Source of the DNA: Candidatus Levybacteria bacterium RIFCSPLOWO2_02_FULL_37_18
GTDB taxonomy: Bacteria; Patescibacteriota; Microgenomatia; Levybacterales; UBA12049
Direction of reading: 5' to 3'
DNA: 37,747 nucleotides
Assembly: GCA_001784115.1 (NCBI GenBank)
Contig: MFPD01000027.1
Location: 1 to 37,747, forward strand
A program made the translations under genes and the position numbers. The notes beneath the pieces are model-generated. The model was given only the letters and a program-made list of their open reading frames with translations. It was not told where the DNA came from and made no database searches. Positions 154 to 37,747 of the stretch are shown here, piece by piece (the stretch's first letter is position 1; each line of letters opens with the position of its first letter).

Positions 154-158
154 ACCAG

Positions 159-282
159 GTAACTGTTCACGCTTCCGACACGATCTCGTCATCCTGAACG
201 TAGTAAAGGATCTATTCGGTAAAAGATTCTTCTGCTTTCAGTCTCAGAATGACAGTTTTATGTTAGAAGTGTGAACTGTTAC
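159..282. repeat. Dispersed palindromic repeat element (intergenic copy)
   Basis: Imperfect inverted ends gtaactgttcacgcttc / gaagtgtgaactgttac around a core gtcatcctgaacgtagtaaaggatct...tctcagaatgac that resembles the copies inside valS and the O-antigen ligase. Confidence 0.6.
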
Positions 283-10682: not shown

Positions 10683-11882
10683 CTAACTATTTGTCATTAC
10701 ACGAGGCAATCGTGTGGTATGTTGAAGCTTTGTTACATAACGTATAACATTTGTTTCCATACTCTCCGCGAGTTCCTCCAACGTAATTTCTTCATCTCCT
10801 TGTTTACCTACGATAACAACTTCGTCACCTAAGCAATATGTCTCATCAATTGGAAGCTTTAGAACCACCTGATTCATTGCTGCTCTATCTAAAATAGAAA
10901 CTCGTTTTCCGTGAATAAGCATTGATCCTCCTGAATCACGAGGACGGTAGTCGTCGGCATGTCCCACATTTACAATCCCCATTGTTGTATCTTCATCTAA
11001 TTTTGTACCTCCATACCCTACTTCCTCACCCTTAGAAACTGTTTTATAGCCTGCAAGTTTTGCTTTAATTGCAGTTAGAATTTTCTTTGGTGCAAATTTC
11101 ATATATTGGGAAAAATCCTCGCTACCCGGCGTAAAACCATACACAATATTTCCTGGACGAACTGCTGTAAATCTTCCCGTATATGTCTTTAGAATTCTCA
11201 TGATAGTTGCTCCTTCTGCTGCGTGTACGTAAAGAGGCAACTGGATACCTCTTTTCTCTACATTATCCAAGAATTCGTTAAATATACCCAGTTGCTTGTA
11301 AGTTTTTGTGAGATCGGGATTTGTTGGGTCGGCAAAATGAGTCATCAATCCCTCTAGGTCAACATGTGAAGACTGGTGAATTTTTTCTACAATCTCAACC
11401 GCCTCTTGTGGTGGCCAAATTCCCTCACGATGCATGCCTGTATCTACAAAAACATGCACTTTTGCTTTTTTCCCTAACTTTTTCGCCGTGTCTTCAATTT
11501 CAGGAAACATCTGGACATGAGAGACTGTTAAAGCAACATTCATATTCAATGCTGCTGGAAGGTTTTCTGGATCGACATAGTCAGTAACCAAAAGAGGAAA
11601 ATTAATCCCATTGCATCTAAGCTCAAACGCCTCACCAAGCGTTGATACCCCAGCATATCGTGCTCCTGATTCTTGAAGCACTTTCCCGACTTCTACGGCT
11701 CCATGACCATAGGCATTAGCTTTTAACATTGGGATTACTGTTACATCCGGACCAACAATTGACGCTATAGCATTCCAGTTGTGTTCAAGGTTTGGTCTGC
11801 TTAGCTCTACCCAAGCAGAATGCCCTTTAAATTCTTTTTTAGGAGCTTTAAGTTGCTCTTCTGATTCGTTTGTTTCTAACAT
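10683..11882 (-). CDS. Alanine racemase-like PLP enzyme (paralog 2)
   Basis: AWVELSRPNLEHNWNAI, VIPMLKANAYGHGAVEVG, VHVFVDTGMHREGIWPP, AVRPGNIVYGF. Start revised from 11921 to 11882 (MLETNESEE) because a strong promoter lies between. Confidence 0.85.
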   Translation of the reverse strand: MLETNESEEQLKAPKKEFKGHSAWVELSRPNLEHNWNAIASIVGPDVTVIPMLKANAYGHGAVEVGKVLQESGARYAGVSTLGEAFELRCNGINFPLLVTDYVDPENLPAALNMNVALTVSHVQMFPEIEDTAKKLGKKAKVHVFVDTGMHREGIWPPQEAVEIVEKIHQSSHVDLEGLMTHFADPTNPDLTKTYKQLGIFNEFLDNVEKRGIQLPLYVHAAEGATIMRILKTYTGRFTAVRPGNIVYGFTPGSEDFSQYMKFAPKKILTAIKAKLAGYKTVSKGEEVGYGGTKLDEDTTMGIVNVGHADDYRPRDSGGSMLIHGKRVSILDRAAMNQVVLKLPIDETYCLGDEVVIVGKQGDEEITLEELAESMETNVIRYVTKLQHTTRLPRVMTNS

Positions 11883-11892
11883 ATGTGAAAAC

Positions 11893-11921
11893 ATTATATT
11901 TATTTTAACTAGTTTACGCAA
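11893..11921 (-). promoter_or_regulatory. Promoter of the racemase/HAD/hexokinase operon
   Basis: Minus strand: TTGCGT-17 nt-TATAAT, with ATG 10 nt downstream of the -10. Confidence 0.65.
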
Positions 11922-17646: not shown

Positions 17647-20262
17647 TTATTTTCGAACCAAGTCAACTCTAAATTGAGTATCTCTTTTCAAAGGAAATTT
17701 AGCCCATGCAATTTTTTCTCCTGTTATCATACGATCATCTTTTTTAAAAAGCGTAAAGGTATTTGGATATACGAATGATGCGCTCCATATATCTTCTTCT
17801 GTTCCCGGCTGTTTAAAAATGCGGAGTTTGTAGGATACAATTTTTCCGATTTGCGGAGTATTTTTCAACCGGTACGTAATGACTACTTTTTTTTCAGAGC
17901 TACTTGGAACAGTAAGATAAAAACCATAGACTGTTTTTTCCCCCTGCTCATACTTCTCAACTTCTATCCCCTCTTTGTTTTTAATTTGTTGTTCATTTGA
18001 AAGAACAAAACCCTGAGTTTTATCATCAATACCAATTGATAAAAGTTCTGATTTTTTTGGCAGGATAAATCTAACATAGAATTTATAATCAATTTCTTTT
18101 GTATTTGGTTCTGCAATGTTTTTGTAATTTATTTTTAATTTCCCCGACACACTTCCTTCTTTAGACAGAGTTGTTAATAGGTCTACTTTTCTTTGCACAA
18201 AATAATTTGCTTTATTCCCTCCAATGTTTGATTCGTTAATGCCTACAAAATCCTGTATTTCATTTTCTCTTTCATAGACCGTAGCAGGAATTGCCGATGA
18301 AACACCGGCTACGGAAAATGGCCTTTGCATATCTTTGTCTAAAAACGCAAAAAGAATATGTTTTTCTGCTATTGACAGATATAAAGCATCAAGCAGCTGA
18401 GTATACGAATGAAGAGTCGCAATTTTATTTTGTATCGCGATAAATAAAGAAGCAATAAAATTTTTCTTTTGGGTAGATCCTGGGAAAAAAAAATTTTCCG
18501 CATACTCCTGTGTAAGCCAATATACGTTTTCTTCGGTGACGGTCTTGTTGTAATCTAAAACTTTTACTTCTCCGATTGCTTTTAAAATCTGTTTTACAAC
18601 AGATACGTCTATCCCGATAACACCGTCAATATCAACTCCTGTTTCTTGTTTAAATATAAATGCGGAAACTGTTGCTGCTTTTGGAAAGTCAATATTGTAA
18701 TTGCTGTCTCGTAAAAATAAATGTTTTATGCCCATGTATTTTTGTAAAAACTCAGGCGGATCAATATGTCCCTTTAATTTTCCGTCTGCTTCATACACAT
18801 CTTCAATTGAAAAACCCTCCATCTTTCCTTTATTAAAAGACACAGTCGCATAAGATCCAATAAATCCTCCTGTTGCTCGAAGCTCCATATTGTTTTGGAA
18901 CAACAAAAGATATGTTTTTTTTCTATCGATTCCCAGTACGGAGAGCAGGACTTCGTTTATGTGCTCAAGAAGTACTGTTTGATCCTGGATACTTTCTAGC
19001 TTTTGCTTAATATCACCCGGAACCAATGGATCTATTTTTAAATATTGAAATTCTAAAATAGACTCTTTTATCAATCTTTGAGAAATAAGAAAATCTTCTT
19101 GCGGCTTTTTTGCCGTACCCAGAAATACGTGGGCTAAAGAGCCCAATGCATCATGCAGCTTAACAACAGTACTGCTCAAACTTTTTCCTTTTTGTAAAGA
19201 GTCTGTAAGTTTTTGGACATGTATTCTCTGCCCAACATATGATGACTCTAAAAGCACAAATGGGGAAAAAGAATTTCCAAAAGAAAATATTTTTACGGCC
19301 TTCGTTGCGTGTGATTTACTATCCGCATACTTTCCTTCTTCTGCTTTCTCCTTAACCTTTTTTAATTCATACGTCCCTAGCGACAAACTTAAAATACTTA
19401 TGACAACAGGAAGAAGTACAAAGAATATACACAGGGCAATAATAAAGAGTATTGCTTGCCTGCTGTTTGTTGTCTGTCTTGAGCGCTCAGATGATTGTGT
19501 TTTGGGTTTTTGATACAATCCTTTTTCCAAAACCTCCTCTAAACGTTTTTTTAAAAGATATTCGTCGGGAATACAATACTCCCCTTCTTCTAAAAAAAAT
19601 TGCGGATGTGTTTTTGTTTCTTGTTTTGAAAAATCTATTTTAAAAAGCGGATTTATTTTTTTTAACGCTCTTGCAAAAGATAACTCCGTGGGCGGGTTTT
19701 TTTGAAAAATATAAAAAATTCCGGAGTGTTTTTTTTCGTCAAAAAAGAGTTTCGTAATTACGCGTATTGCATCTTCCATATGTACAGGATAAATCGTTTC
19801 TACTCCCGTTTTAGCAATTTCTATCACTCCTTTTTCGTATGCATTGACAAGAATTTCTTCTACTCTATTTTTCCCCGAAACCATATTCCCAAATACATCA
19901 CCCAGAATAAAAAACATTATATTTTTTTTATCACGAATTCTCTCCCGCAAATCTTGCGCATATTTTCTTTCCAGGACAACAATACATTTCTTTCTTGTTT
20001 GGGCTTGTAATTCGGAAAGTGAATTTTTTATTTCTTCTTCGCCGTTATATACGACAAATATGTACTCATATTCGTACTCGGGAATTACGGGCAGTTTTTT
20101 TCTTTCTTTTTTATAGTGGATATATACGTCATCCTCAGACCTAACATACGCCTCTGGTTTTTTACTGCTTACCAATACAAAGGAATATGCGTCTTTTACG
20201 GATTGCCAAAATATATTTCCAATATTGTCTTGTTTGTCCAGAATTAATACGCGCTGCTTCAT
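17647..20262 (-). CDS. DUF4012-domain protein with N-terminal nucleotide-sugar-epimerase-like domain and central TM
   Basis: DUF4012-like: KTYLLLFQNNMELRATGGFIGSYATVSFNKGKMEGFSIEDVYEADGKLKGH...LRDSNYNIDFPKAA. TM: AILFIIALCIFFVLLPVVISIL. N-terminal FILGDVFGNMV...VETIYPVHMEDAIRVITKL is SDR/epimerase-like. Confidence 0.75.
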   Translation of the reverse strand: MKQRVLILDKQDNIGNIFWQSVKDAYSFVLVSSKKPEAYVRSEDDVYIHYKKERKKLPVIPEYEYEYIFVVYNGEEEIKNSLSELQAQTRKKCIVVLERKYAQDLRERIRDKKNIMFFILGDVFGNMVSGKNRVEEILVNAYEKGVIEIAKTGVETIYPVHMEDAIRVITKLFFDEKKHSGIFYIFQKNPPTELSFARALKKINPLFKIDFSKQETKTHPQFFLEEGEYCIPDEYLLKKRLEEVLEKGLYQKPKTQSSERSRQTTNSRQAILFIIALCIFFVLLPVVISILSLSLGTYELKKVKEKAEEGKYADSKSHATKAVKIFSFGNSFSPFVLLESSYVGQRIHVQKLTDSLQKGKSLSSTVVKLHDALGSLAHVFLGTAKKPQEDFLISQRLIKESILEFQYLKIDPLVPGDIKQKLESIQDQTVLLEHINEVLLSVLGIDRKKTYLLLFQNNMELRATGGFIGSYATVSFNKGKMEGFSIEDVYEADGKLKGHIDPPEFLQKYMGIKHLFLRDSNYNIDFPKAATVSAFIFKQETGVDIDGVIGIDVSVVKQILKAIGEVKVLDYNKTVTEENVYWLTQEYAENFFFPGSTQKKNFIASLFIAIQNKIATLHSYTQLLDALYLSIAEKHILFAFLDKDMQRPFSVAGVSSAIPATVYERENEIQDFVGINESNIGGNKANYFVQRKVDLLTTLSKEGSVSGKLKINYKNIAEPNTKEIDYKFYVRFILPKKSELLSIGIDDKTQGFVLSNEQQIKNKEGIEVEKYEQGEKTVYGFYLTVPSSSEKKVVITYRLKNTPQIGKIVSYKLRIFKQPGTEEDIWSASFVYPNTFTLFKKDDRMITGEKIAWAKFPLKRDTQFRVDLVRK

Positions 20263-24472: not shown

Positions 24473-25867
24473 ATGAAAAACGATCTAAAACCCATGTGGA
24501 ACAATATTTTAGCCAGCATTGAAACAGAAATATCCAAAGGAAGCTTCCTGGCGCTATTTAAGTCCACCTCTCTTTTGTCTTTGGAAAAAGATTCCTCGCG
24601 AAACCGGCTGGTAGCAAACATTAGCGTCCCTTCAACCATCATCATTGACATGATCAAAAAAAAGCATTTAATGCTTCTTAAAGCAGCTATTAAAAAACAA
24701 GCAAAGGAAGATGCTGATGTTGTTTTTGTTCCCAAGTCTCTTCCGATAGATACACAGGAAATAAAAAATGCGCCCTTATTCGTACACACTATGAATCAAC
24801 TCGAAGAAGCAGCAAGGCCTCAACCGATAAAAACTTCAGATTTTTTACCCAGGTTTCGAAGCGACTACACCTTTCAAACCCTGGCGGTATCAGACAGTAA
24901 TCAGCTCGCATTCGTTGCCGCCTCAACTGTTACTAAAAATCCAGGAACATCGTATAACCCGCTGTTTTTATACGGTCCATCCGGAGTAGGAAAAACTCAC
25001 TTAATGCATGCAATAGCAAATGAGATAAACAAAAAACAACCGGGCATAAAAATTATGTATAAAACATCTGAGGATTTTACCAACGAAGTAGTTGAGGCAA
25101 TTCGGAGTAATCAAACACACGGGATGAAAAAGAAATTCAGAAGTACCGATGTATTTATTGTTGATGATGTACAGTTTATTGCCGGCAAAGACAAGGTCCA
25201 AGAAGAGTTATTCCACACATTTAATATTTTAATTGATAAAGGCGCTCAGATTGTTTTGTCTTCAGACAGGCCTCCCCAAGAAATTAAAAAACTCGAAAAA
25301 CGGCTTTCTTCCCGTTTTTCAGGAGGCTTAACCGTTGACATAGAACCTCCTGATTTTGAACTTCGGTGCGCCATTTTGCTCATTAAGGCTAAAAAATACG
25401 GGTACGATTTACCGATTGACGTAGCAAAGGTTATCGCGCAAGACATTGAGGACACAAGGTTTTTGGAAGGCACGCTGCTTCGTCTTATTACAGAAGCAAC
25501 CACAAAAGGACAGGCATTAACCGACTCACTGGCGCAAAATTCTTTAAAAAATAAAACGGGCGAACAAAAACACTTTATAAGACCCGATGAGCTTATTAAG
25601 TCTGTATGCAGTTTTTACAATGTAAAACCAACCCAGTTAAAAGGCATAAAACGTGACGCTTTCTTGGTGAAGGCCAGACAAATTTGCATGTATTTACTCA
25701 AAAAAGAACTTCATCTGCCGCTTGTTGAGATTGGAAACTTATTGGGAGGAAGAGATCACACGACTGTTATGCACGGATGCGGAAAAATCGAGCGATTACT
25801 CATGGAAAAAGAAAAATCTGCTTTGTTTGATGAGGTCAGGGGGATAACTAAAACACTCATTGGATAA
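24473..25867 (+). CDS. dnaA: Chromosomal replication initiator protein DnaA
   Basis: LFLYGPSGVGKTHLMHAIANEI, DVFIVDDVQFIAGK, SSDRPPQEIKKLEKRLSSRFSGGL, GGRDHTTVMHGCGKIE. Confidence 0.97.
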   Translation: MKNDLKPMWNNILASIETEISKGSFLALFKSTSLLSLEKDSSRNRLVANISVPSTIIIDMIKKKHLMLLKAAIKKQAKEDADVVFVPKSLPIDTQEIKNAPLFVHTMNQLEEAARPQPIKTSDFLPRFRSDYTFQTLAVSDSNQLAFVAASTVTKNPGTSYNPLFLYGPSGVGKTHLMHAIANEINKKQPGIKIMYKTSEDFTNEVVEAIRSNQTHGMKKKFRSTDVFIVDDVQFIAGKDKVQEELFHTFNILIDKGAQIVLSSDRPPQEIKKLEKRLSSRFSGGLTVDIEPPDFELRCAILLIKAKKYGYDLPIDVAKVIAQDIEDTRFLEGTLLRLITEATTKGQALTDSLAQNSLKNKTGEQKHFIRPDELIKSVCSFYNVKPTQLKGIKRDAFLVKARQICMYLLKKELHLPLVEIGNLLGGRDHTTVMHGCGKIERLLMEKEKSALFDEVRGITKTLIG

Positions 25868-25893
25868 GGTGGGAAAAACTTTTACCATTGTGT

Positions 25894-26020
25894 TTATCTA
25901 CATGTTTTCCACATTTTTATCAACAGGTTGTTATCATTTTTTTAATTACGTTTATGTTTATAATTCTTTCCAGGATTGCATTTATACACATTTCCCTATA
26001 TACTACTACAACTACAAATA
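25894..26020 (+). promoter_or_regulatory. Putative oriC core: DnaA-box-like sites followed by a DnaA-trio-like tract
   Basis: TTATCTACA (25894-25902), TTTTCCACA (25905-25913), TTATCAACA (25917-25925), TTATACACA (25982-25990), then CTACTACAACTACAAATA (26003-26020). Confidence 0.6.
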
Positions 26021-26033
26021 GATATATCGTCGT

Positions 26034-27161
26034 ATGAAACTACATGTTCTCTCGGAAAACATAACAAGAAAGCTTCCTTTACTTTTACGGGCAGTATCCA
26101 CAAAAACCCAATTACCAGTACTTCTTAATTTTTTAATTCTGACACAAGACGGAAAACTGGTCATAAAAAGTACAGACCTTGAGATTGGCATAGAAGTTTC
26201 TATACCAGTAAACATTGAAGAAGAAGGTGGCGCAACCGTTGTGGCACGAAAATTTTATGACCTCATATCTTCTTTGCCTCCAGAGAAAATTACAATTGAA
26301 ACCCTAGATTCAGGATTAATCATAAAAACCTCAAAAACAAAAAGCACTTTACAAATAATTCCAGCAGAAGAATTTCCAAAGCTATACGAAGAAACAGGAA
26401 GAAGACTAACTGGCTTTAAAAACAAAGACTTAAAAGACTGTATTGTGCCGGTTGTATTTGCTGCAAGCAGCGACATAACACGACCCGCGCTTTCGGGCGT
26501 TTACATAAAACAAGAGGAAGATTCATTTTTACTGGTTGCAACAGACGGATATAGGTTATCTTTAAAACGATATATTGGGAAAATTGTTCATAAAAAACCG
26601 GCGGAGAAAGAATGGGAAAAACCTCTTTTGGTTCCAAGTAGGTTATTTAAAGAAATCAATACACTAAAAGGAGAAGACGAAGAGGAAGTAATATTTTATA
26701 TTTCAAAAAACAATAATCAGATTTTATTTAAAACCACGGACACTATTATTGTCGGAAGACTTATAGAAGCGGAATACCCAAACTACCAAAAAATCATTCC
26801 TTCCAGTTTTCAAACGAGGGTTGTTTTCGACAGAGAGGAAGTGGAGAAGGCAATAAAAATTGCTTCGGTATTTGCCAGAGAAGCATCCAATGTTGTCAAG
26901 TTTGAAATGAAGGATAAACGCATATTTATTTCGGCAAATGCGCCGTCGGTTGGAGAAAACATTGTGGAAGTAGAGGCTGACATACAAGGAGATGAAAATC
27001 AAATCGCGTACAACGCCAGGTACCTTTTGGATTTATTTGCCAACAGTACCTCTGATCAGCTTGTCTTAGAAATGACCGAATCTTTAAGCCCGGGCGTGTT
27101 TAAAATTCCAAATGACGACACCTTTCTTCACTTAATCATGCCAATACGAGTACAGTCGTAA
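26034..27161 (+). CDS. dnaN: DNA polymerase III beta sliding clamp
   Basis: MKLHVLSENITRKLPLLLRAVSTKTQLPVLLNFLI, RPALSGVYIKQEEDSFLLVATDGYRLSLKR, C-terminal HLIMPIRVQS. Confidence 0.96.
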   Translation: MKLHVLSENITRKLPLLLRAVSTKTQLPVLLNFLILTQDGKLVIKSTDLEIGIEVSIPVNIEEEGGATVVARKFYDLISSLPPEKITIETLDSGLIIKTSKTKSTLQIIPAEEFPKLYEETGRRLTGFKNKDLKDCIVPVVFAASSDITRPALSGVYIKQEEDSFLLVATDGYRLSLKRYIGKIVHKKPAEKEWEKPLLVPSRLFKEINTLKGEDEEEVIFYISKNNNQILFKTTDTIIVGRLIEAEYPNYQKIIPSSFQTRVVFDREEVEKAIKIASVFAREASNVVKFEMKDKRIFISANAPSVGENIVEVEADIQGDENQIAYNARYLLDLFANSTSDQLVLEMTESLSPGVFKIPNDDTFLHLIMPIRVQS

Positions 27162-27204: not shown

Positions 27205-28134
27205 ATGGGCAGGTTTCATGAAGGCGAACCAACTGTATTAAGAAGAGATGTTTTAACATGGGTAGCTGCTTTTGGTGTTCGCTCAGTCACCCCCGTTTCT
27301 TTTTTAGAACAAGGATTTCTGGGCTTTATTGATAAATACACGGGTGATTTTAAAAGATTTAGAAAAGAAGGAGAACGCGTTATAGATTATTTTTCCGGAT
27401 TTATGTCAGATGACAGGGAGTTTAGACTAAATGCTTCTTTAAGCATGAGGCAGTTTGTGGCAATCAGGACAAGGTTAGCTGAGAAAGGTTGGGGGATGTC
27501 CGAGTCGTTCTTTTTTACCTACGGAAAGGAAGGTATGGATTTGTATTCTCCTAAGGATACCGCTAGGGATCCGGAAAGAACCAAACAAAAAGCAATTGAA
27601 TATGCAGAATATCAAGTTGATATGCAGCCGAAAGTTAAAAGAATAGGAATTGCGCATAGCGCCGGATTTATTCCATTATTGGAAATCCTTAGCCAATTTC
27701 CCAACAGATACGATTTGGTGATATTTTTATCGTCTCCTTTATATGGTCTTGAGCCTTCGATTCCTCGAAAATTAAAAGCAGGGGTAGTACATCAGGTTCT
27801 TCGTCAGGCGATTGGCATGGAAGAACACCTTTCGCAGTATTTATTTAATCTTTGGAAAGATAAAGACTATAGAAAAAACCTTGATACCTTTTTTGATCAA
27901 TTTGTTGAAGACGGAAATGAAGTATATTGTTTTACAACTGAAAACGACACAATTGTTCCCAAGGAATCAGCGTTATTAAAAAGCGCGCTTGTAGAAGCGG
28001 GAGGGAATAAGATTCGACAAGTTTTGCCAATTGTATGGTCGCTTTATCCACAAGATGCTCATGGAGCAGTATTTATCGATAAAGAAACGCTAGAAACTAT
28101 TGCTGAGATTGTGGGAGAAAATAAAGCAGCCTAA
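27205..28134 (+). CDS. Alpha/beta-hydrolase-like protein
   Basis: GIAHSAGFIPLLEILSQFPNRYDLVIFLSSPLYGL (GxSxG-like HSAG); FTTENDTIVPKESA; late His in PQDAHGAVFI. Confidence 0.5.
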   Translation: MGRFHEGEPTVLRRDVLTWVAAFGVRSVTPVSFLEQGFLGFIDKYTGDFKRFRKEGERVIDYFSGFMSDDREFRLNASLSMRQFVAIRTRLAEKGWGMSESFFFTYGKEGMDLYSPKDTARDPERTKQKAIEYAEYQVDMQPKVKRIGIAHSAGFIPLLEILSQFPNRYDLVIFLSSPLYGLEPSIPRKLKAGVVHQVLRQAIGMEEHLSQYLFNLWKDKDYRKNLDTFFDQFVEDGNEVYCFTTENDTIVPKESALLKSALVEAGGNKIRQVLPIVWSLYPQDAHGAVFIDKETLETIAEIVGENKAA

Positions 28135-28859
28135 AAACTATTGATGTAATTGATACTATGCGTTGTGGGATCAACGCCATGGCTTTTTATCCAATCAATA
28201 ACTTCCTGTTTTACTTTTTCTCGATCAGAAATCTTCATTTTTACCTCAAGGGTTGATTTAGTCTTATAGACAATATCAAAACTACCGGTTTTGTATGGAG
28301 TATAATCCACAAGCGGATAGTATTTTTCCAGGTATGCTTTTTCTTTATCAACCTGCAGCGATGAAGAAGATTGAGCAGGAGTTATGGAGGTGGTAAAGTT
28401 CCAGGAGTATACGGTTTTTCCAAAGCTATCTTTTAAAACAGCTGTATATGTTGTATTTGTTTGTAATCCGCCATAAATTTTTGCAATGACTTGTTTTGCG
28501 GGAAACGTGTTGGTTATTTTAAAGTAATACGGAAGAGGAGGGGAGAATTCTAAGATAAACGACTTGTTGGACTGGATATAGACATTCGTAAAAATGGAAA
28601 CCTCAATCTCTCCCGGATATACATTTTTTTCATTATTCTGGGGACTTGTCTCTACTGCTTGGAATGGAACTTGAGAAGGAGACGGTTTTTGAGCAGAAGG
28701 GTACGCGGTGGGAAACGGAAGGCTTTGGTCAGGAATATTTTGTCTTTTGTTAAAGATAAAGAAAGCCCAAAAAAGAGAAACAAGCGCTGCTCCCGTAATA
28801 GCAAACAGCAGCATGGTTTTATGCGCACCCAAGAAATAAAACAACTTTTCCATATTCAT
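28131..28859 (-). CDS. Membrane-anchored protein with Ig-like (SbsA-like) domain and a C-terminal module shared with 29608-30132
   Basis: TM MLLFAITGAALVSLFWAFFIF; VETSPQNNEKNVYPGEIEVSIFTNVYI...LQTNTTYTAVLKDSFGKTVYSWNFTT; C-terminal KVKQEVIDWIKSHGVD. Confidence 0.55.
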   Translation of the reverse strand: MNMEKLFYFLGAHKTMLLFAITGAALVSLFWAFFIFNKRQNIPDQSLPFPTAYPSAQKPSPSQVPFQAVETSPQNNEKNVYPGEIEVSIFTNVYIQSNKSFILEFSPPLPYYFKITNTFPAKQVIAKIYGGLQTNTTYTAVLKDSFGKTVYSWNFTTSITPAQSSSSLQVDKEKAYLEKYYPLVDYTPYKTGSFDIVYKTKSTLEVKMKISDREKVKQEVIDWIKSHGVDPTTHSINYINSF

Positions 28860-29614
28860 TTTTTCCGGACCCTAAAAAAAGTATAGCAATCTTTTGGGTG
28901 AGTTTGTGCATCATTTACAAAACAGGTTGTCGGGTAACTTGATTCTATCCCTTCAAAGCGAATGGTGTCCGGCAAAAGCCTTTTAAAGATAAGCGCGTGT
29001 CCTGCTGATCCAACACTATCGCATCCACTTGCAAAGCCTATGTCTCCTGGTTGTATGTCGTCTGAGTCTGTCCTTGTATAGGTAAGGAGTGAGCTGCGAT
29101 CGGAGTTTAACAAAGAAGGATTCTCCAAGATTTCTACCGGTGAATTTTGAAGAAGAGTAGTAGTGTCGCCGGAAGCAAGGGTGAGAGATATGGCGTTAAA
29201 TCCTAAACACTCCACACATCCATTCGGCTTTGCTCTTTCTCGTCTTTTGCTGAATTTTTCCACAAAATCTCCGGAATATCCTCTTTCCTGAAGAAGGTTT
29301 AAGGTGCATGACTCAACAGCGTTGTTAGTGCGGGTATTGCCGTTTAGTTTTGTTTTTCCTCCAGGCGGGTCTTCGGGAGTGCAGGCTTTGTATGCATTCG
29401 CAACATCTTGGGCAGCTTTGGCAAAATCAGAGGTCTCAGGCTGAGTGCCAACTTTGACTCTGACAGTATTGCTATACGATTGAGCAACAGAGTATGTTGA
29501 ATGAAGCATATAGTATATAACAATTACCATAATTATAATCAGGCGACCACAAAGCTTTGAGTTTTGAGCTATAGTTTTGAGTTTTGACATTTGAGCCATG
29601 GGTTTTCTTAGCAT
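28856..29614 (-). CDS. CHAP/amidase-like peptidoglycan hydrolase, membrane-anchored or secreted
   Basis: N-terminal TM; GCVECLGFNAISLTL (candidate catalytic Cys), IQPGDIGFASG, GSAGHALIFKRL (candidate His). Confidence 0.55.
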   Translation of the reverse strand: MLRKPMAQMSKLKTIAQNSKLCGRLIIIMVIVIYYMLHSTYSVAQSYSNTVRVKVGTQPETSDFAKAAQDVANAYKACTPEDPPGGKTKLNGNTRTNNAVESCTLNLLQERGYSGDFVEKFSKRRERAKPNGCVECLGFNAISLTLASGDTTTLLQNSPVEILENPSLLNSDRSSLLTYTRTDSDDIQPGDIGFASGCDSVGSAGHALIFKRLLPDTIRFEGIESSYPTTCFVNDAQTHPKDCYTFFRVRKK

Positions 29615-30132
29615 CCTTCCAGCAAATAACTAAATGTTATATTTTTATTCTGAAGCTGATTTTTTAGAGAACTACGTAAAACAAACATAATTGGCAAATT
29701 GCAAATTCCGCTTTGACTAAATCCTTGATCCTTAAACCACTCGGTCACATCTTGTTTTACCTTTGCAATATGTTCTGAAAGAATCTCAACTTGAAACATA
29801 TCATACGACTTGGAATAGTAAATTGCATATGAAACATTTATATTAACGACTTGTTTATTTTTTAAAGCCTGACTTATTAGTTTTGCGCGAATATTCCCCT
29901 CCGATTCATTTAGAGGCCGTCGGTGATCGATCTTGTCTGCAAGCTTGACAATTGAGCTTGAATTATAAATAATGCCAGATACTTGTTTGTTTGGAAGAGG
30001 CTGAATATACAGTGTTGGAGCAGGGAAAGCTTTTGGCGCATTATCTTGAGGAGTTTTTATGCTTAAAATAACAAGAACTAAAAAAGAAAGAATTGAAAGA
30101 ATAATAAGTCCTAATAAAATTTTGTTTCTCAT
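29608..30132 (-). CDS. Membrane-anchored protein, paralogous C-terminal module
   Basis: TM LLGLIILSILSFLVLVILSI; AKVKQDVTEWFKDQGFSQ matches KVKQEVIDWIKSHGVD in 28131-28859. Confidence 0.5.
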   Translation of the reverse strand: MRNKILLGLIILSILSFLVLVILSIKTPQDNAPKAFPAPTLYIQPLPNKQVSGIIYNSSSIVKLADKIDHRRPLNESEGNIRAKLISQALKNKQVVNINVSYAIYYSKSYDMFQVEILSEHIAKVKQDVTEWFKDQGFSQSGICNLPIMFVLRSSLKNQLQNKNITFSYLLEGC

Positions 30133-30133
30133 G

Positions 30134-31270
30134 TTAATTATACGGGCAATCTAAAGGTGTAAGACTAAACCTTTGTCTTGTAGCAGTATCGTGCTTAACA
30201 GGCTCCCAATAACAAAAACTATTGTTAATAGTTAATTTATTATAATTGATTGCATTTTCTATTTGATTTTCCCATACTACGTCACCGGCATCATATTGGT
30301 TATTTCCTTTTCCATTAGGATTCATTTGCATAAGCCCATATGCTCCCTTTCCGCTTGAGGAACCGCCATTGTATGCATTGGGAGAATATGAGCTTTCACG
30401 ATCTGCTAAGAACAACCACAGTGTTTTGTTAACTGAATCAAGCCGGTTAAGTGTTTCACCCAATTTGTCTGTTCGTTCTCCAAGATTTCCCGCAAATGTA
30501 CAAGCTGGGTCTCCAAAATTAATTCCCGCAGGATTGCCAGTTGGAAGATCAACATAAAGACGAGAGGGATTATTGGCTGATAAGCACATATCTGTTGTTG
30601 GAGTAGCTCCAGCTGATTCTCCATACGCTGTATTGTCAATGTTGATATTATTTTCTTTTGGTTTGACAGTAAGGGTAAAGGTATATTTTTTTTCGCCTGA
30701 ATCAGGGTTTGTGGTTGGCAAATTCACATCAGGATCAAGTTTCCAGGTAATCAAAGTTTTATCAGCGTTAAGTTCATGATTTCCGCTTGCACTGATAAGC
30801 TCTGCATTCGAAGGAACAGGGTCTTTAATTATAATATTTTTTTCATTTGTGCCGACATAGGTGGCAACAGTGGTAAACGTAGTTTCTTCGTTTTCATCAG
30901 GAAGTTCTGTCGGATCCGCGGATTTTTCAATGGTTAAGCCTGGGACTTCCGGTTGTCTGACAATGCCGGTTGGCAATGGTATGTCAGGACCTTCTGTGTC
31001 TCCCGGAGCCTCAGCTGTTTTGGGCTTAATGATAATAATTATGGTAATAATAATAACTAGAACAATTGCAGCAATCGGTCCCCACACGGGAAAAGAAGCA
31101 ATCAAACCGCTGGCTGCACTTCCAAGCCTGGCAAGTCTTGCCAATTGTTGAGTTTGTTTTAGCGTGCGCAAAACATTTCCGGCTGAATCAAGAACGCTGT
31201 TAATACTGTCTAGATTGCTGCTTCTTTGTGGTGGAGAATCTTGATTTTGAGCTTGTGTATTATAAGCCAT
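30134..31270 (-). CDS. Membrane-anchored DUF11-like domain + lytic transglycosylase (SLT-like)
   Basis: TM GPIAAIVLVIIITIIIII; LTIEKSADPTELPDENEETTFTTVATYVGTNEKNIIIKDPVPSNAELIS; LFLADRESSYSPNAYNGGSSSGKGAYGLMQMNPNG. Confidence 0.7.
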   Translation of the reverse strand: MAYNTQAQNQDSPPQRSSNLDSINSVLDSAGNVLRTLKQTQQLARLARLGSAASGLIASFPVWGPIAAIVLVIIITIIIIIKPKTAEAPGDTEGPDIPLPTGIVRQPEVPGLTIEKSADPTELPDENEETTFTTVATYVGTNEKNIIIKDPVPSNAELISASGNHELNADKTLITWKLDPDVNLPTTNPDSGEKKYTFTLTVKPKENNINIDNTAYGESAGATPTTDMCLSANNPSRLYVDLPTGNPAGINFGDPACTFAGNLGERTDKLGETLNRLDSVNKTLWLFLADRESSYSPNAYNGGSSSGKGAYGLMQMNPNGKGNNQYDAGDVVWENQIENAINYNKLTINNSFCYWEPVKHDTATRQRFSLTPLDCPYN

Positions 31271-31297
31271 ATTAGAAAATTAACCTAATTTTTTAAC

Positions 31298-31330
31298 AAA
31301 TTCGAATACCAAAGCACGAAATTCGAGTTT
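31298..31330. repeat. Short intergenic inverted-type repeat
   Basis: aaattcgaataccaaagcacgaaattcgagttt between the SLT and VirB4 genes. Confidence 0.35.
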
Positions 31331-31337
31331 TTACTCC

Positions 31338-33140
31338 CTATGAATTAGAGATGTTTGCCTGTTGTGTTGTATTAGCAGGAGGAATTTGTTGGGCTTGCTG
31401 TTTTGCTAAGAGTTCTTCCGGATTTGAGGTAATAAGCGTATGCTCAAACGGCGCCGCCATAACCTTCATGACAACATGATTTTGTCCGGCAAAAAATAAC
31501 CCTTCTCCAATGCCGGAACCAACCAAGAGTTGCTTCTCGCCCTCGGTTAAAAAAAAGGTTTTAGAAACAATGTCAGCCTCAGCTGTGCCTTGCCGTAAGA
31601 GAATTTGGATAGAGGAGTTTGACAAAACTGCTTTACCATAGTCAGTTGATAAAAAATCTTCTACGTCTTGAGTAGCTGTTGTTAATCCTAAGTAGTATTT
31701 CCTGGCCCGTTTGGCAATACTATAGACATACGAAGCAGAGTCCTCATATCTCATCATATACCACGCCTCATCTAAAATCAAAAGCCTTTTTTTGAGTGTT
31801 TTTCGAATTCTCGTCCAGACAAAATCTAAAATTATATGCATGGCAATGGGGCGCAGGGTTTCTTCAAGTCCCCGGATCGAAAACACAGTCATGGGGTTGG
31901 TGATATTAAAATTAGATTGCTGGTTAAAAATGCCTGCTAAACTTCCTTTAATAAATCGTTCTAAAAGCAGCGCTAAGTTTTTAGCAACAGGATCTTCCAT
32001 GCCCAAAAGCGTTTTGTATAAATCTTCCATTAAAGGTGGTTCTTTGGTTTGGGTCGCAGGATCAGGGGTTATGCCTTTTTGCCGGTAGGCTTCAACTAAA
32101 GCTCTGTCTAGAATTGCTTCCTGGGCAGCATCGAGTTTTCCCACCACTATTTTTAAAAGCCCGTGCAAAGACAAAATTTTAAGTCCTAATTCATTTTCTC
32201 CTTCTTGGTAAAGCCCGGAAAGATCAAACGGATTCATTCTTATAGGTGAGGCAGGAGTAAAAGAAAGAATCTCTCCGTTTAGAGAGCGGGTTAATTCCGT
32301 GTATTCTCCTTCCGGGTCAACAATAATTACTTCCGTGCCAAACATAAACTGCCGCATTGCCTCAAGTTTAATGAGGTATGATTTTCCCGAACCCGACTTG
32401 CCCAAAACGACTTCATTCGCGTTTTCCAGAGAAAACCTGTCAAAAATGACTAAAGATCCATTCTGCTCGTTTATGCCGTATAAAACACCTTTGTTTTGAG
32501 TCAGTGTGGCAGACGTAAATGGAAATGTTGACGCTAAGGAAGACGTATCCATGTTTCTGGTGATAAAAAGCCTGTTTTGGCCTAAAGGCATAGTTGATTT
32601 TACTCCGTCTTCCATTTGCAGAGTGGCAGTTTTTTCAACCAAAAGTACAGACGACAATGTTGCTTTTAAGCGTTTTGTCGCTTCCTCTAAATCAGAAAGC
32701 GTAGGGGAAGAAAGGGTAATGTAAAAGCTAAAATGGAAAAACCGCTCAATTCCTTTGGCAAGTTCTTCCTGAAGCGCTAACGCGTCTTCAAGACCTGCCT
32801 GAATAGTCGGGTCAAGCACCTTGCCTTTTTCTTGCTCGGAAGAAAGTGTTGCTTCCATTTCCGCGATTTTTCTTTTTAAATTGGTTAAGATATCGCCTGA
32901 CTCGGTCGGGTAGATAAACATGGAAAGATCCAGTGAGTGATCAAAGTTAATCAGCGGTTCAAGCCAGTTGGCAGATACGTATCTTGGGTAACCAACCATA
33001 AAAATCGTGCGATAGAACATGTCCCCAACTCGTATGTAGCGAAAATCAACTTCAACCGAAGAAGGGGCAAGAAGATCAGGCAGGGAAACCATGCCTTTTT
33101 CAAGGTTTTGTAATATGTTTTGATTAGGTTGTTTTGCCAT
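31338..33140 (-). CDS. virB4: VirB4-type T4SS ATPase
   Basis: Walker A EVVLGKSGSGKSYLIKLEAMRQF; Walker B KRLLILDEAWYMMRYED; RARKYYLGLTTATQDVEDFLSTDYGKAVLSNSSIQILLRQ. Confidence 0.93.
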   Translation of the reverse strand: MAKQPNQNILQNLEKGMVSLPDLLAPSSVEVDFRYIRVGDMFYRTIFMVGYPRYVSANWLEPLINFDHSLDLSMFIYPTESGDILTNLKRKIAEMEATLSSEQEKGKVLDPTIQAGLEDALALQEELAKGIERFFHFSFYITLSSPTLSDLEEATKRLKATLSSVLLVEKTATLQMEDGVKSTMPLGQNRLFITRNMDTSSLASTFPFTSATLTQNKGVLYGINEQNGSLVIFDRFSLENANEVVLGKSGSGKSYLIKLEAMRQFMFGTEVIIVDPEGEYTELTRSLNGEILSFTPASPIRMNPFDLSGLYQEGENELGLKILSLHGLLKIVVGKLDAAQEAILDRALVEAYRQKGITPDPATQTKEPPLMEDLYKTLLGMEDPVAKNLALLLERFIKGSLAGIFNQQSNFNITNPMTVFSIRGLEETLRPIAMHIILDFVWTRIRKTLKKRLLILDEAWYMMRYEDSASYVYSIAKRARKYYLGLTTATQDVEDFLSTDYGKAVLSNSSIQILLRQGTAEADIVSKTFFLTEGEKQLLVGSGIGEGLFFAGQNHVVMKVMAAPFEHTLITSNPEELLAKQQAQQIPPANTTQQANISNS

Positions 33141-33777
33141 TTTGTGCCCCTTTTACTACAGGTATTTGGATATCTTCGGATGTTGTTGCCGCGTCAATGT
33201 CGCTTTGGAGGGGATTAAATACAGAATAAAACAATCTTACCAATTCTTCTTTTTGTAAAACCTTTGCTTTTAGGTTAGTGCGGGCAATTTGCTCTAAGAG
33301 CGCGTTTGTCTTTGTGGTTAACGATGCTTTTGCCTGCGTGATAAAATCTTTGCTTTTTATGGCATGAGTTGCCCCCAGCTCTAAAGAAGAAAAAGAAATA
33401 ACGACATAAAAGCGTTTGTCCAAAATGCTGTTTTGTCTTACCAGTTCTCCGATATATTGACGGTATTGGGTAATATAGGTACCAAGCTTTTGCTCTTTTG
33501 CTTTCTGGGCTTCTCCGTCAAGTAGCTTAAGATACGAAGAAATATCTTCCCGTTTGCTTTTGATCAAGATCTGAATGGGGAATGAAAGCGAGTTTAATAA
33601 GCCCGCGTATCCTGCGATTTTGGCGTATTGTTCGGCTTGGGACAAAAGGGCAAAGTTAGTTGCTTCAATTTCGATTATCGAACACGCAAAGCCGTTGGTT
33701 AAAGCAACCACAGTATCTACTATATCCGCGATTTCGGTAAAGTATTGAGTTGTCGCGTGAATTTTTGTTTTGCTCAT
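33124..33777 (-). CDS. TraC/VirB4 N-terminal-domain-like protein encoded separately
   Basis: YFTEIADIVDTVVALTNGFACSIIEIEATNFALLSQAEQ...LNSLSFPIQILIKSKR...RFYVVISFSS; 17-nt overlap with virB4. Confidence 0.7.
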   Translation of the reverse strand: MSKTKIHATTQYFTEIADIVDTVVALTNGFACSIIEIEATNFALLSQAEQYAKIAGYAGLLNSLSFPIQILIKSKREDISSYLKLLDGEAQKAKEQKLGTYITQYRQYIGELVRQNSILDKRFYVVISFSSLELGATHAIKSKDFITQAKASLTTKTNALLEQIARTNLKAKVLQKEELVRLFYSVFNPLQSDIDAATTSEDIQIPVVKGAQNGKTT

Positions 33778-34967
33778 GTTCCGAATAATTGCTTTTTTAA
33801 TTCATTCCGATGGTCAATTGCAACAATTTCAAGTGGAGGAATAATTTCCCCTGTGGCAGAGAGTTCCGCGGGATCAAACGTATGCCTGCCTGAAGCATCT
33901 TCAAACGTTATTTTATAGCGGCCGTTTGGCAGGGGAGTGGCTGAGGCAAACTGTCCAATAACATTGGTCTTAAACGCCCTGACAGGATTTCCTTCCTGAT
34001 CCTGAATATCAATTAAAATACTCGGCAGGACATTTCCCCTGGGGTCTTTAATAACGCCGGTGATTAAATTCGGAACTTCCGGAGCATACGAAGAAATCGG
34101 CTTTGGAGTATTTGTCGAGGGTCCCAGACGTCTTCCGCGTGGTTTTTGAGCTTCAAACCTAGCTTTTAGAGCTATGAGCTCTTCTTCTAGTTGTTTTTTT
34201 TGAGCCAGGATTTCTTCGAGCTGCTTTTGCAGTTCTTCTGTTTTTTGATGTGCCACAACGGTATGTGTTGCTGTTTCTTCTTCTTTGGCCTGATCAAGTT
34301 CTTTTTTAAGATATTCTGATTCTTTTTCCAATTCTTTTTCCAACTCCTCGGGATTTTCTTTGTCAATGTGAATGGGCGTATCTTTTTTTGGCTGAGGGGC
34401 TTGCTCAGGTGTTGGAGTTTGTGAGGCAAAGGTTGAGCCGGAAACAGGATTCATGGAAATAATCTGAGGGGGGGGTGTGGAGGCAGGCTTTGTGTTTACA
34501 AGTATGGGGCTTGCCAGCACCGTTTTAATAAATAATTCTTCTTTTTCATCAAGTTTGGTTTTAGGTTTTTCAATCTTTTTTTTCGTGATTGTTTGGACCA
34601 TCTGAGAAATCTGCTGTTGGTTTATTTGACTTCGGGCTGTTGTTTTTTTAGGAATTGGTACGGAGATGTCTATTGGTTTTCCGATTTTACCATAGACATA
34701 CTGATCCGGAGCAAACAAAGCATGGACAAACAAGGAAAGCATGGCGTCAAAAGGCCTGCCTTCTATTGGTACAAACGCGAAAGAAAACCCTAGAGAAGCA
34801 GGAACTATTACCAAAGGAATTTTTGCAAAAATCGGGAAGGGCAAGGCATAGCAAATCCATGAGATAACACACCCAGATGCTAAATACAAAAACTGCTTAA
34901 TCGTCATGTTGCCGATAAGCTTAAACTGAAACCCGGTAACATTCTGGGGGATGGGATGATTTTCCAT
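33774..34967 (-). CDS. PrgI-like T4SS membrane protein fused to coiled coil and carboxypeptidase-regulatory-like domain
   Basis: N-terminal VTGFQFKLIGNMTIKQFLYLASGCVISWICYALPF...FVPIEGRPFDAMLSLFVHALFAPDQYVYGK; C-terminal NLITGVIKDPRGNVLPSILIDIQDQEGNPVRAFKTNVIGQFASATPLPNGRYKITFED. Confidence 0.8.
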   Translation of the reverse strand: MENHPIPQNVTGFQFKLIGNMTIKQFLYLASGCVISWICYALPFPIFAKIPLVIVPASLGFSFAFVPIEGRPFDAMLSLFVHALFAPDQYVYGKIGKPIDISVPIPKKTTARSQINQQQISQMVQTITKKKIEKPKTKLDEKEELFIKTVLASPILVNTKPASTPPPQIISMNPVSGSTFASQTPTPEQAPQPKKDTPIHIDKENPEELEKELEKESEYLKKELDQAKEEETATHTVVAHQKTEELQKQLEEILAQKKQLEEELIALKARFEAQKPRGRRLGPSTNTPKPISSYAPEVPNLITGVIKDPRGNVLPSILIDIQDQEGNPVRAFKTNVIGQFASATPLPNGRYKITFEDASGRHTFDPAELSATGEIIPPLEIVAIDHRNELKKQLFGT

Positions 34968-35015: not shown

Positions 35016-35430
35016 TTAAAACCTTTTTCCTTTTAAGGTTAAAACACTAGATCCCAACATATTACTTATTTCTGTTAATTCTTCTAAAAGATATTGGGCA
35101 TTCAGTTTTTAATGCAGGACAAGAGCCTCTTAATAAACATAGCCAGTATTTTGTTTCGTTAGAAGATTTTAGAGCGATCTCGTAGAATTTAATAAAATCG
35201 CGTCGTGAACTCGCAGTTTGAGCTTCCATCATGTTTGCGCCGATCGAAGCAGCAGCGCGAAGAAACTGGTCACCAATCGACCAAAATGCTCTTTTATCAG
35301 GAAGGGAGTTTATAAACTTTATTATTGCTAAGGCAAATTGGTAAACCCGGACTTTTACGTCTTTAGATTTTAGATTTAAATTGTAGTTTTGCGATTTGCG
35401 ATTTGCGATTTGCGATTGGACAAGCGTCAT
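35016..35430 (-). pseudogene. Four-helix bundle protein (S23/TIGR02436-like) with a 1-nt frameshift
   Basis: VYQFALAIIKFINSLPDKRAFWSIGDQFLRAAASIGANMMEAQTASSRRDFIKFYEIALKSSNETKYWLCLLR; expected C-terminus AQYLLEELTEISNMLGSSVLTLKGKRF continues in another frame to TAA at 35016-35018. Confidence 0.75.
35362..35418. repeat. Heptameric repeat (TTTGCGA x4, TTAGATT units)
   Basis: ttttagattttagattt...gttttgcgatttgcgatttgcgatttgcgattgg; 7-bp period. Confidence 0.75.
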
Positions 35431-35664
35431 ACTGGCAGTATAGATTCAAATATATGATATCTCTATCTTTGGATATTTATCTGTGCATTGAGTGTATATC
35501 GTGAAAAATCTCTTTTCAACCCCCACAAAGCGAGTCAGACAGGATCAAAATAATGTGGATTTCGTGAAAAGTATACTTATGTGGATCAGTTGCTATTTTC
35601 TTTTACAGTTTTTCTTGGCCATCTTTGACGTTGAAGAATATTTAGAAAATGCCAAAATTGACTT

Positions 35665-36081
35665 TTAGGGTAAAGTAGAAATACCCACTTTTTTAAAATC
35701 TGAATCTAAAGAGATGACTGATTCGACATCAAATTTTTTAACTAAAGCAATAGTTGTGGCATCTGTTAAGGACAGTTTATGCTCAAAAAATTTTTGAACT
35801 ATTTCAAACGCCTCTGATTGTATTTGCTCATCAACCCAAAGCTCTATTATGTTGGAATTTTTTATTCCGTCATTGATTAGATTAATGAACCTTTTGGTTA
35901 TTTTAAGATCAGTATCATAAATCAGCCTAGTTACTGTTTCGTCAATCACATCATTTGAGGTGTGAATTATTATGCCTTTCTTTGAAAGCTGTTTGACTAG
36001 ACTCTTGATAGTTAAATGTTTGGGCTGTTTTGATAAAGAGTAGGAAATCCAGGCAGAGGTATCTATAAAAACTTTGCGCAT
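35665..36081 (-). CDS. PIN-domain toxin-like protein
   Basis: MRKVFIDTSAWISY, DVIDETVTRL, LSLTDATTIALVKKFDVESVISLDSDFKKVG. Confidence 0.85.
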   Translation of the reverse strand: MRKVFIDTSAWISYSLSKQPKHLTIKSLVKQLSKKGIIIHTSNDVIDETVTRLIYDTDLKITKRFINLINDGIKNSNIIELWVDEQIQSEAFEIVQKFFEHKLSLTDATTIALVKKFDVESVISLDSDFKKVGISTLP

Positions 36082-36083
36082 TG

Positions 36084-36338
36084 TTAGTCTTTAAGATAAA
36101 TGTTATTTACATTTGTAGAAATATCTCTACTAGGACCTTTAGCAAAGCCTGCCATTTTAAGCAGGGAGTTATTTTTCATTAGCTTCTTGCTGTGAGCTTC
36201 CAATAGCTTCCCATAAACCTTGGCCATACGGTCTATTATATCCCTGATGATTTTAGAGCGTGAAAGATTTGTCAGTTTGGTAAGCTCATCAAGAGTATTA
36301 ACTGAGTCTGGGTTTAAGTAGATCTGATATCTATTCAT
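36084..36338 (-). CDS. Ribbon-helix-helix antitoxin-like protein
   Basis: MNRYQIYLNPDSVNTLDELTKLTNLSRSKIIRDIIDRM; immediately upstream of the PIN gene. Start revised to 36338. Confidence 0.8.
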   Translation of the reverse strand: MNRYQIYLNPDSVNTLDELTKLTNLSRSKIIRDIIDRMAKVYGKLLEAHSKKLMKNNSLLKMAGFAKGPSRDISTNVNNIYLKD

Positions 36339-36373
36339 ACATACACCATAACAAAGATGGTGTATGTTGTCAA
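36339..36373 (-). promoter_or_regulatory. TA promoter with perfect inverted-repeat operator
   Basis: Minus strand: TTGACA-17 nt-TATGGT-6 nt-ATG; 11-nt perfect arms acatacaccat / atggtgtatgt span spacer and -10. Confidence 0.8.
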
Positions 36374-36496
36374 GTACGCTTACCACCATATTTGTAATAG
36401 ACCCGCTTTTGCTGCTTTGCCTAACTTGAGAAGCCTGAACATGGGGAATTTGTTCGGGGACTGCAAGTGAGGGCGCTAAAACAGGTTCAATAAAAG

Positions 36497-36526
36497 TTTA
36501 CAAAAAGAGGAGGAATGGGTTATAAT
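36497..36526 (+). promoter_or_regulatory. Promoter of the AbiEii-type module
   Basis: TTTACA-18 nt-TATAAT-6 nt-ATG (36533). Confidence 0.65.
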
Positions 36527-36532
36527 GCGGGT

Positions 36533-36772
36533 ATGGTAAAGATTTGGGATTATGATATAAATGAGCTTAAGAAAACCGAAGGCGGTAGAAGGATAATTCT
36601 GGAAAGAATGATTAATTATGGTCCTGATGAAGGAGAAAAAATCAATCTTTCCGAAGTAAAAAAAAATTGGGATAAACTACAGCTCTTTACACTGCAAAAA
36701 AGATTATTAGAACTTTTAATATGGGGAAAGTACATCTCCTCACGAAAGAGCAAAACACCATTTTGGATGTAG
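36533..36772 (+). CDS. Putative antitoxin partner of the AbiEii-like protein
   Basis: MVKIWDYDINELKKTEGGRRIILERMINYGPDEGEKINLSEVKKNWDKLQL; upstream of and overlapping the nucleotidyltransferase gene. Confidence 0.6.
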   Translation: MVKIWDYDINELKKTEGGRRIILERMINYGPDEGEKINLSEVKKNWDKLQLFTLQKRLLELLIWGKYISSRKSKTPFWM

Positions 36773-37377
36773 TAAGACAAAACAAGCTTGTTGCGTCCAA
36801 TTTTTATTTCACAGGCGGTACAGCGTTAAGTACGTACTATCTTCAGCATCGATACTCTGAGGATTTAGATTTTTTTAGCGAGAACAAATTTGACAATCAA
36901 ACCATTTTTACCATTATGGAAGAATGGAGCAAGACTCATAATTTTAGATTTGACTCTAGGTTTTCTCAGGTGGTTTATGTATTTAATCTTGTTTTTGCAA
37001 ACAATGCAAAGTTAAAAGTTGATTTTGCTCTATATCCTTACAAGAGACTTGAAAAAGGAGTTATGTATGACGGAATTGAAGTGGATAGCTTATCTGATAT
37101 TGCAGCAAACAAGTTATTGACTATCGCTCAACGGACAGATATTAAGGATTTTGTTGATTTATATTTTCTATTAAACAAATATACCATTTGGGATTTGATT
37201 GAGGGAGTTCGAATAAAATTTAGAATGAGGCTGCAACCATTTTTAATTGCTTCTGATCTGCTAAAAATAGATGAGTTTGATGTATTGCCGAAAATGATCA
37301 AGCCATTAAAGCTTGATAATTTAAAATCATTTTTTCGGGAAAAGGCAAAAGAATTAGCCCTAAAAGATGTGGAGTAG
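36721..37377 (+). CDS. Nucleotidyltransferase AbiEii/AbiGii toxin-family protein
   Basis: FYFTGGTALSTYYLQHRYSEDLDFFSENKF, KLKVDFALYPYKRLE, IAANKLLTIAQRTDIKDFVDLYFLLNKY. Confidence 0.88.
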   Translation: MGKVHLLTKEQNTILDVVRQNKLVASNFYFTGGTALSTYYLQHRYSEDLDFFSENKFDNQTIFTIMEEWSKTHNFRFDSRFSQVVYVFNLVFANNAKLKVDFALYPYKRLEKGVMYDGIEVDSLSDIAANKLLTIAQRTDIKDFVDLYFLLNKYTIWDLIEGVRIKFRMRLQPFLIASDLLKIDEFDVLPKMIKPLKLDNLKSFFREKAKELALKDVE

Positions 37378-37600: not shown

Positions 37601-37747
37601 ATTTTTTTGAACTGTTGTCGAAGCTGTAGGATAGTGGCTTGGGAATATTTTTTCCCTCGGATAATCCACGTGTTTTTTTATCGACTCATTCTGAACTATC
37701 TGAAAGCAGCGAATCAGAATCTATAAAATGGAGATGCTGAAACCGAG

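Follow-up and report, generated by a model that had tools for sequence, protein, structure and literature searches.

The 37,747-base window analyzed here, which is the complete contig C27 of a draft metagenome-assembled genome (MAG) of Candidatus Levybacteria bacterium RIFCSPLOWO2_02_FULL_37_18, carries seven tightly packed minus-strand genes that very probably constitute the ATPase-and-wall half of a chromosomal type IV secretion system (T4SS) of the Patescibacteria kind, a machine moving macromolecules between the cell and a cell that it contacts. The components, their order, and their conserved place beside dnaN were observed directly, and genes for pilins and for VirD4-like and VirB6-like proteins lie elsewhere in the genome (1.11 Mb, 31 contigs, completeness 96.5%). 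An earlier, sequence-only reading of the window had described the same seven genes, and the boundaries that it gave agree exactly with the list of open reading frames (ORFs); its proposal of an envelope-spanning, T4SS-type machine is supported by the family identities given below. The system itself has already been published for Patescibacteria, including its position near dnaA and its lack of a relaxase (PMC12102498).

Searches with hidden Markov models supported the protein identities proposed from sequence, with Pfam and NCBIfam matches for the PrgI, TrsD/VirB4-N-like, VirB4, DUF11+SLT, and Big_5 proteins, and invariant residues for the CHAP protein. VirB4, of the monoderm (FATA) type and the only such match in this genome, scores above the cutoff of NCBIfam NF045971 (CD1110 family; 1.4e-114), matches Pfam P-loop_TraG (2.7e-26), and has the motifs GKSGSGKS and LLILDEAW. 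Its TrsD-like neighbor matches positions 100 to 287 of NCBIfam VirB4_plasma at 4.1e-11 and TrsD itself at 0.003. The PrgI protein combines a PrgI domain (6.1e-8) with CarboxypepD_reg (6.8e-6), and both domains were present in 23 of 23 relatives tested. In the alignment, its C-terminal domain (PNLITGIVKDPRGN..LPNILVEVKD..GNPVRAFKTN.LGQFASATPL) is strongly conserved and the linker is variable. Since two transmembrane helices are predicted (residues 26 to 68), the C-terminal domain probably lies on the same side as the N terminus, in the cytoplasm.

A further resemblance of VirB4 is to CedB, an import ATPase of archaea (8e-14), and is weaker than that to conjugative VirB4 (1e-114). An alternative hypothesis is that the machine mainly imports DNA, in a Ced/Ted-like or competence-like manner, supplying nucleotides to a cell possibly unable to make them; import of DNA or other macromolecules is what the authors of a phylum-wide survey favor (Quinonero-Coronel et al. 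2025, PMC12102498). We consider this rather unlikely, given that Ced-type systems leave two peptidoglycan hydrolases and a pilin array unexplained and that the direction of transfer is not readable from sequence.

The remaining four genes encode wall-directed or anchored proteins. The SLT protein has a catalytic-type Glu within DRESSYSPNAY..GAYGLMQM, and its homologs occupy the equivalent position in most relatives. The CHAP-like protein had no Pfam match of its own; C136, H206, and E224 are invariant in its alignment with proteins encoded at the same position in relatives, two of which are Pfam-confirmed CHAP, and hhalign joined it to the CHAP group (E 1.7e-5, probability 78.5). Its structure model, with a predicted local distance difference test (pLDDT) score of 46, was too poor for use. 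A C-terminal domain is common to the 174-amino-acid (aa) anchored protein and the Big_5 protein, as shown by hhalign of alignments A1 and A2 (probability 97.7, E 2e-12, 45 columns). With the AlphaFold2 model of the 174-aa protein (pLDDT 89), neither PDB nor viral folds gave a match at an E value below 0.001 (best PDB E 0.17, with VirB8, a protein of NTF2-like periplasmic fold, absent from the list), so these data do not justify the name VirB8, a label that we set aside.

Features of the window (positions on contig C27) and the basis of each assignment.
Feature	Coordinates	Strand	Basis or remark
PrgI/VirB3-like inner-membrane protein; variable coiled-coil linker; conserved C-terminal CarboxypepD_reg-like domain	33774..34967	-	Pfam, alignment, transmembrane prediction
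TrsD/VirB4 N-terminal-like protein	33124..33777	-	NCBIfam; conserved VirB4 neighbor
VirB4 ATPase	31338..33140	-	NCBIfam, Pfam, motifs
Membrane-anchored DUF11 + SLT wall hydrolase, VirB1-like	30134..31270	-	Pfam SLT 4.2e-6, DUF11 2.2e-4; transmembrane segment 63-81
Membrane-anchored protein; C-terminal alpha/beta domain; two invariant Cys (C144, C174)	29608..30132	-	alignment A1; AlphaFold2 model
CHAP-type secreted hydrolase in exchange slot; post-signal tag NTVRVKVGTQPE	28856..29614	-	invariant residues, hhalign, tag
Membrane-anchored Big_5 (Ig-like) protein	28131..28859	-	Pfam Big_5 2.3e-5
dnaA + dnaN	24473..27161	+	ORF list; same neighbors in relatives
C27 terminus in dispersed repeat	37686..37747	.	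62 bp identical to C18:38977-39038

It had been noted that genes for a coupling protein, a relaxase, pilins, and VirB6 are all missing from the window, which gave the picture of a compact system. The observation is true, yet the window is the entire contig, ending 2.8 kb upstream of the operon, and the assembly offers nothing further on that side; the picture of a system lacking VirD4, pilin, and VirB6 was not supported. Four matches to the VirB2-like pilin family PF18895, all above the cutoff, lie on contig C18 (45037-46543). The same contig encodes a VirD4/TraG-like protein of 792 aa (C18:1203-3581; T4SS-DNA_transf 4.5e-9, TrwB_AAD_bind 4.8e-9), apart from virB4. A polytopic VirB6/TrbL-like protein of 554 aa is encoded on contig C10 (4032-5696), where TrbL scored 2.0e-5 and 23.5 bits, just below the cutoff of 25.9. 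Fifteen ORFs in the sampled loci are homologs of the latter and keep its transmembrane pattern. In many relatives the pilin array is contiguous with PrgI and the VirB6-like family shares a locus with pilins and virB4. The pilins, VirD4-like, and VirB6-like parts are thus off the contig rather than absent, and the compactness is largely a contig-edge effect. The Pfam TrbL model reached an E value of 0.01 in only 1 of 8 members of the VirB6-like family, which fits the published scarcity of VirB6 by standard profiles in Microgenomatia (PMC12102498).

Within the locus, change is fastest in the pilin array, the anchored proteins, and the hydrolases, as might be expected if it encoded an attachment pilus and wall-remodeling apparatus that translocates nothing. 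The Ptl and Brucella VirB systems, cited in PMC12102498, have no coupling protein. With a VirD4-like protein in the genome and VirB6 conserved with the locus, we regard such an attachment-only apparatus as improbable.

Near the pilins, C18 also encodes a lone protein with FliG_M and FliG_C domains (Pfam 1e-21 and 7e-30; C18:39406-40590, or L038:6407-7591, minus strand), although nothing else known of the lineage calls for a flagellar switch protein. It occurs in this genome only, 1 of 73 in the family; because the other 72 lack it, we rejected FliG as a conserved T4SS component. Seven relatives (L039, L042, L043, L046, L048, L055, and L058) have an optional cassette between PrgI and the pilins, which corresponds to C18:40647-44901 here; its genes, of the r404, r1007, r119, and 265-aa types, several without a Pfam family, are inserted in the T4SS locus.

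The operon lies in the chromosomal replication-origin region, as its neighbors rnpA, yidC, jag, dnaA, and dnaN indicate; they precede it on the opposite strand (ORF list and comparison of stretches), and a single 309-aa ORF (27205-28134) separates dnaN from it. VirB4 was matched in 68 of 82 genomes of the order. The nearest named relatives are all Candidatus Levybacteria/Levyibacteriota and Patescibacteria bins, i.e., Microgenomates. Stretches flanking virB4 were taken from 17 relatives and then from 20 more; ORFs were called mechanically and labeled by iterative profiles. A held-out set comprised 20 further loci, collected later. The relatives examined share a recurring gene order, although individual genes are missing in some genomes and a few loci stop at contig edges: jag-yidC-rnpA, dnaA and dnaN (forward), an anchored protein, a hydrolase, an anchored protein, then SLT, VirB4, TrsD, PrgI, and the pilins (all reverse). 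Beyond the pilins, relatives have an AAA/Trans_reg_C protein, a charged protein of 850 to 1,330 aa (forward), and VirB6 (reverse). The position beside dnaN is fixed in these relatives. Mean pairwise identity was 70% for VirB4, 60% for DnaA, 54% for DnaN, 52% for TrsD, 45% for PrgI, 37% for VirB6, and 20% for the SLT-slot gene, which makes VirB4 the most conserved of the proteins compared, above DnaA.

These data bear on whether the operon belongs to an integrative conjugative element, with its relaxase and oriT situated off the contig. In this genome PF03432 and PF13814 gave no match and PF01076 gave only a subthreshold, chance-level one (E 0.045), MOBC, MOBM, and MOBF models being left out; the genome-wide search thus yielded VirD4-like and VirB6-like proteins and no relaxase with the three Pfam models. 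On that result a conjugative element appears unlikely. The contig does stop in a repeat 2.8 kb upstream, with toxin-antitoxin genes between, as a truncated element might. Set against this are the lack of any relaxase match above the cutoff with the three models, the fixation of the locus next to dnaN across the order, and a VirB4 more conserved than DnaA, as in a core gene; we consider such an element highly improbable, in agreement with the sequence-only reading, which suggested a chromosomal machine rather than conjugation.

The charged proteins of 850 to 1,330 aa, convergent beside VirB6 (L057:559-4035, L041, L044, L050, L060, L063, L065, L066, L085, L090, L091, and others), are divergent in sequence, BLAST-linked across 18 loci, and without a Pfam match; a scaffold or a substrate is a possible role. 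Second VirB4-like proteins, about 40% identical to the core VirB4, were found in eight genomes (G027, G026, G061, G062, G076, G034, G001, and G036), which suggests that some relatives may have another T4SS.

The gene between the two anchored-protein genes occupies what we call an exchange slot. It is of the CHAP type here and CHAP, NlpC/P60, M23, or M74 elsewhere by Pfam, while M15-like and HExxH-type slot proteins were recognized by visible motif only and had no Pfam match. Slot types differ within genera: CHAP versus M23 in G068 and G069 (VirB4 90% identical), M23 versus HExxH-type in G016 and G017 (84%), and M15-like versus NlpC/P60 in G035 and G036 (87%); two additional same-genus pairs had similar slot types. 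Many relatives lack the slot gene altogether. The SLT gene is variable too, with SLT in most scoring relatives and M23, M15_4, or Amidase_3 in others. The slot divides the constant part of the machine, exemplified by VirB4, from changing wall-facing enzymes.

Most slot proteins carry, directly after the signal peptide, a short motif (tag) around T-x-[VI]-G-[NTE], often within a Cys-Cys loop (SCWVTKIGTPSEEAVLPFPC, NCVITNIGTGNPNAIPPNC); the window protein has NTVRVKVGTQPE. The tag was noticed first and tested afterwards, and its training alignment was made by eye. Regular expressions fitted on the same sequences matched 10 of 19 proteins, against a mean of 0.6 in shuffles (0 of 2,000 as high). 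For the 15 listed proteins, leave-one-out scoring with a position-specific scoring matrix gave rank 1 of 780 eight times, the window protein included, and a rank in the top 20 for 13; the two failures ranked 78 and 210. Among the held-out loci, slot proteins L130 (M23-like by motif) and L113 (HExxH) ranked 1 and 2 of 147, L116 scored low with the motif shifted by one residue, and a fourth slot protein, at a contig edge, had no motif. A class-wide codon search for TK[VIM]GNP, a strict pattern of low power, gave 17 matches in 187 genomes, one of them after a signal peptide, in the known slot protein of G006. At the level of sequence, the tag is well supported for most slot proteins and is not universal.

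We would guess that the tag docks the slot enzyme on the machine; an alternative is plain descent of the 5' end of the gene after its 3' part was replaced. Tentatively, and with the odds against it, we speculate that the slot holds interchangeable wall-cutting tools, in which a constant signal peptide and short tag dock the hydrolase and its catalytic portion is exchanged from lineage to lineage to suit the wall of whatever host is current. If so, the slot hydrolase should fit the partner cell's peptidoglycan, the tag should bind a T4SS component, and slot content could help to predict the hosts of uncultured ultrasmall bacteria. Neither slot nor tag is described in PMC12102498 or turned up in searches of an openly licensed literature library, which is not proof of novelty.

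In the T4SS that we propose, VirB4, the TrsD-like protein, and PrgI would form a cytoplasmic motor, VirB6 an inner-membrane channel, and the VirB2-like pilins a contact pilus. Opening the peptidoglycan would fall to the anchored SLT protein and the secreted hydrolase, and the two anchored proteins may secure components on the outer side. Protein or other macromolecules would be carried to or from a contacted cell. Exchange of the slot hydrolase between relatives could plausibly follow a changing wall, either the cell's own or that of a putative host, with the constant tag perhaps docking the enzyme. Several points weigh against this proposal. No VirB8 homolog was identified, and the predicted fold of the 174-aa anchored protein matched nothing. 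VirB6 was assigned from one member's subcutoff TrbL match (20.6 to 23.5 bits versus 25.9) together with transmembrane pattern and position. Linkage of C27, C18, and C10 is taken from relatives, the genome being a draft MAG.

We read the locus as an ordinary and well-conserved representative of the Patescibacteria T4SS already published. It shares with the systems surveyed by Quinonero-Coronel et al. (PMC12102498) VirB4, TrsD, PrgI/VirB3, VirB2-like pilin arrays, a location near dnaA (here dnaA-dnaN-rnpA), a coupling protein distant from virB4, and the lack of a relaxase, relaxases being rare in that survey. It differs in having, repeatedly across relatives, anchored wall hydrolases and a VirB6-like family of polytopic proteins, whereas in Microgenomatia the survey described VirB6 as scarce and saw little association of VirB1 with virB4; the VirB6 candidate at the locus end would fill the VirB6 gap. 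The far-end VirB6-like family, the conserved PrgI C-terminal domain, and the exchange slot are additions that we did not find in the publications consulted.

Transposon sequencing of Southlakia epibionticum showed that T4SS genes SEML1_0006-0019 are essential for epibiotic growth and that this T4SS lacks a relaxase and coupling protein (Wang et al. 2023, PMC10633639), as a review repeats (PMC12857230); peptidase and lysozyme homologs just downstream of its virB4 are also reported as essential (PMC12102498). The likeness, by description only, consists of pilins in the cluster, no relaxase recognized, and low locus-tag numbers suggestive of an origin-near cluster. Southlakia belongs to a different class, Saccharimonadia, and essentiality there is experimental. 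With Gram-positive conjugation systems (MPF-FATA: CD1110 family, pGO1 Trs, PrgI/PrgJ) the locus shares a VirB4 above the CD1110-family cutoff and TrsD and PrgI homologs; it differs in being a chromosomal core locus with no relaxase found, VirB2-like pilins, and hydrolase functions on two separate proteins.

The last 62 bases of C27 equal C18:38977-39038, but they belong to a dispersed intergenic repeat (CATTCTGAACTATCTGAAAGCAGCGAATCAGAATC...) with eight full or partial copies (window 37686-37747, C18:38977-39038 and 19154-19190, C9, C11, C8, and C19), so that a C27-C18 join is possible and unproven. Another repeat, at window 157-282, matches C18 at 96 to 98%. Directly upstream of the operon (35062-37377) are genes for a four-helix 23S-IVP-like protein (a label assigned by eye, with no search behind it), a PIN toxin pair, and an AbiEii-like gene; some relatives (e.g., L046) have similar short genes in the corresponding position. 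Farther away, an AAA + Trans_reg_C protein (4483-5790, minus strand) falls in one profile family with the regulator-like gene that neighbors the pilins in relatives, and two alanine-racemase-like genes, so named by eye (7343-8506 and 10683-11921, minus strand), contain DNA blocks 70 to 79% alike, with two other genes between them.

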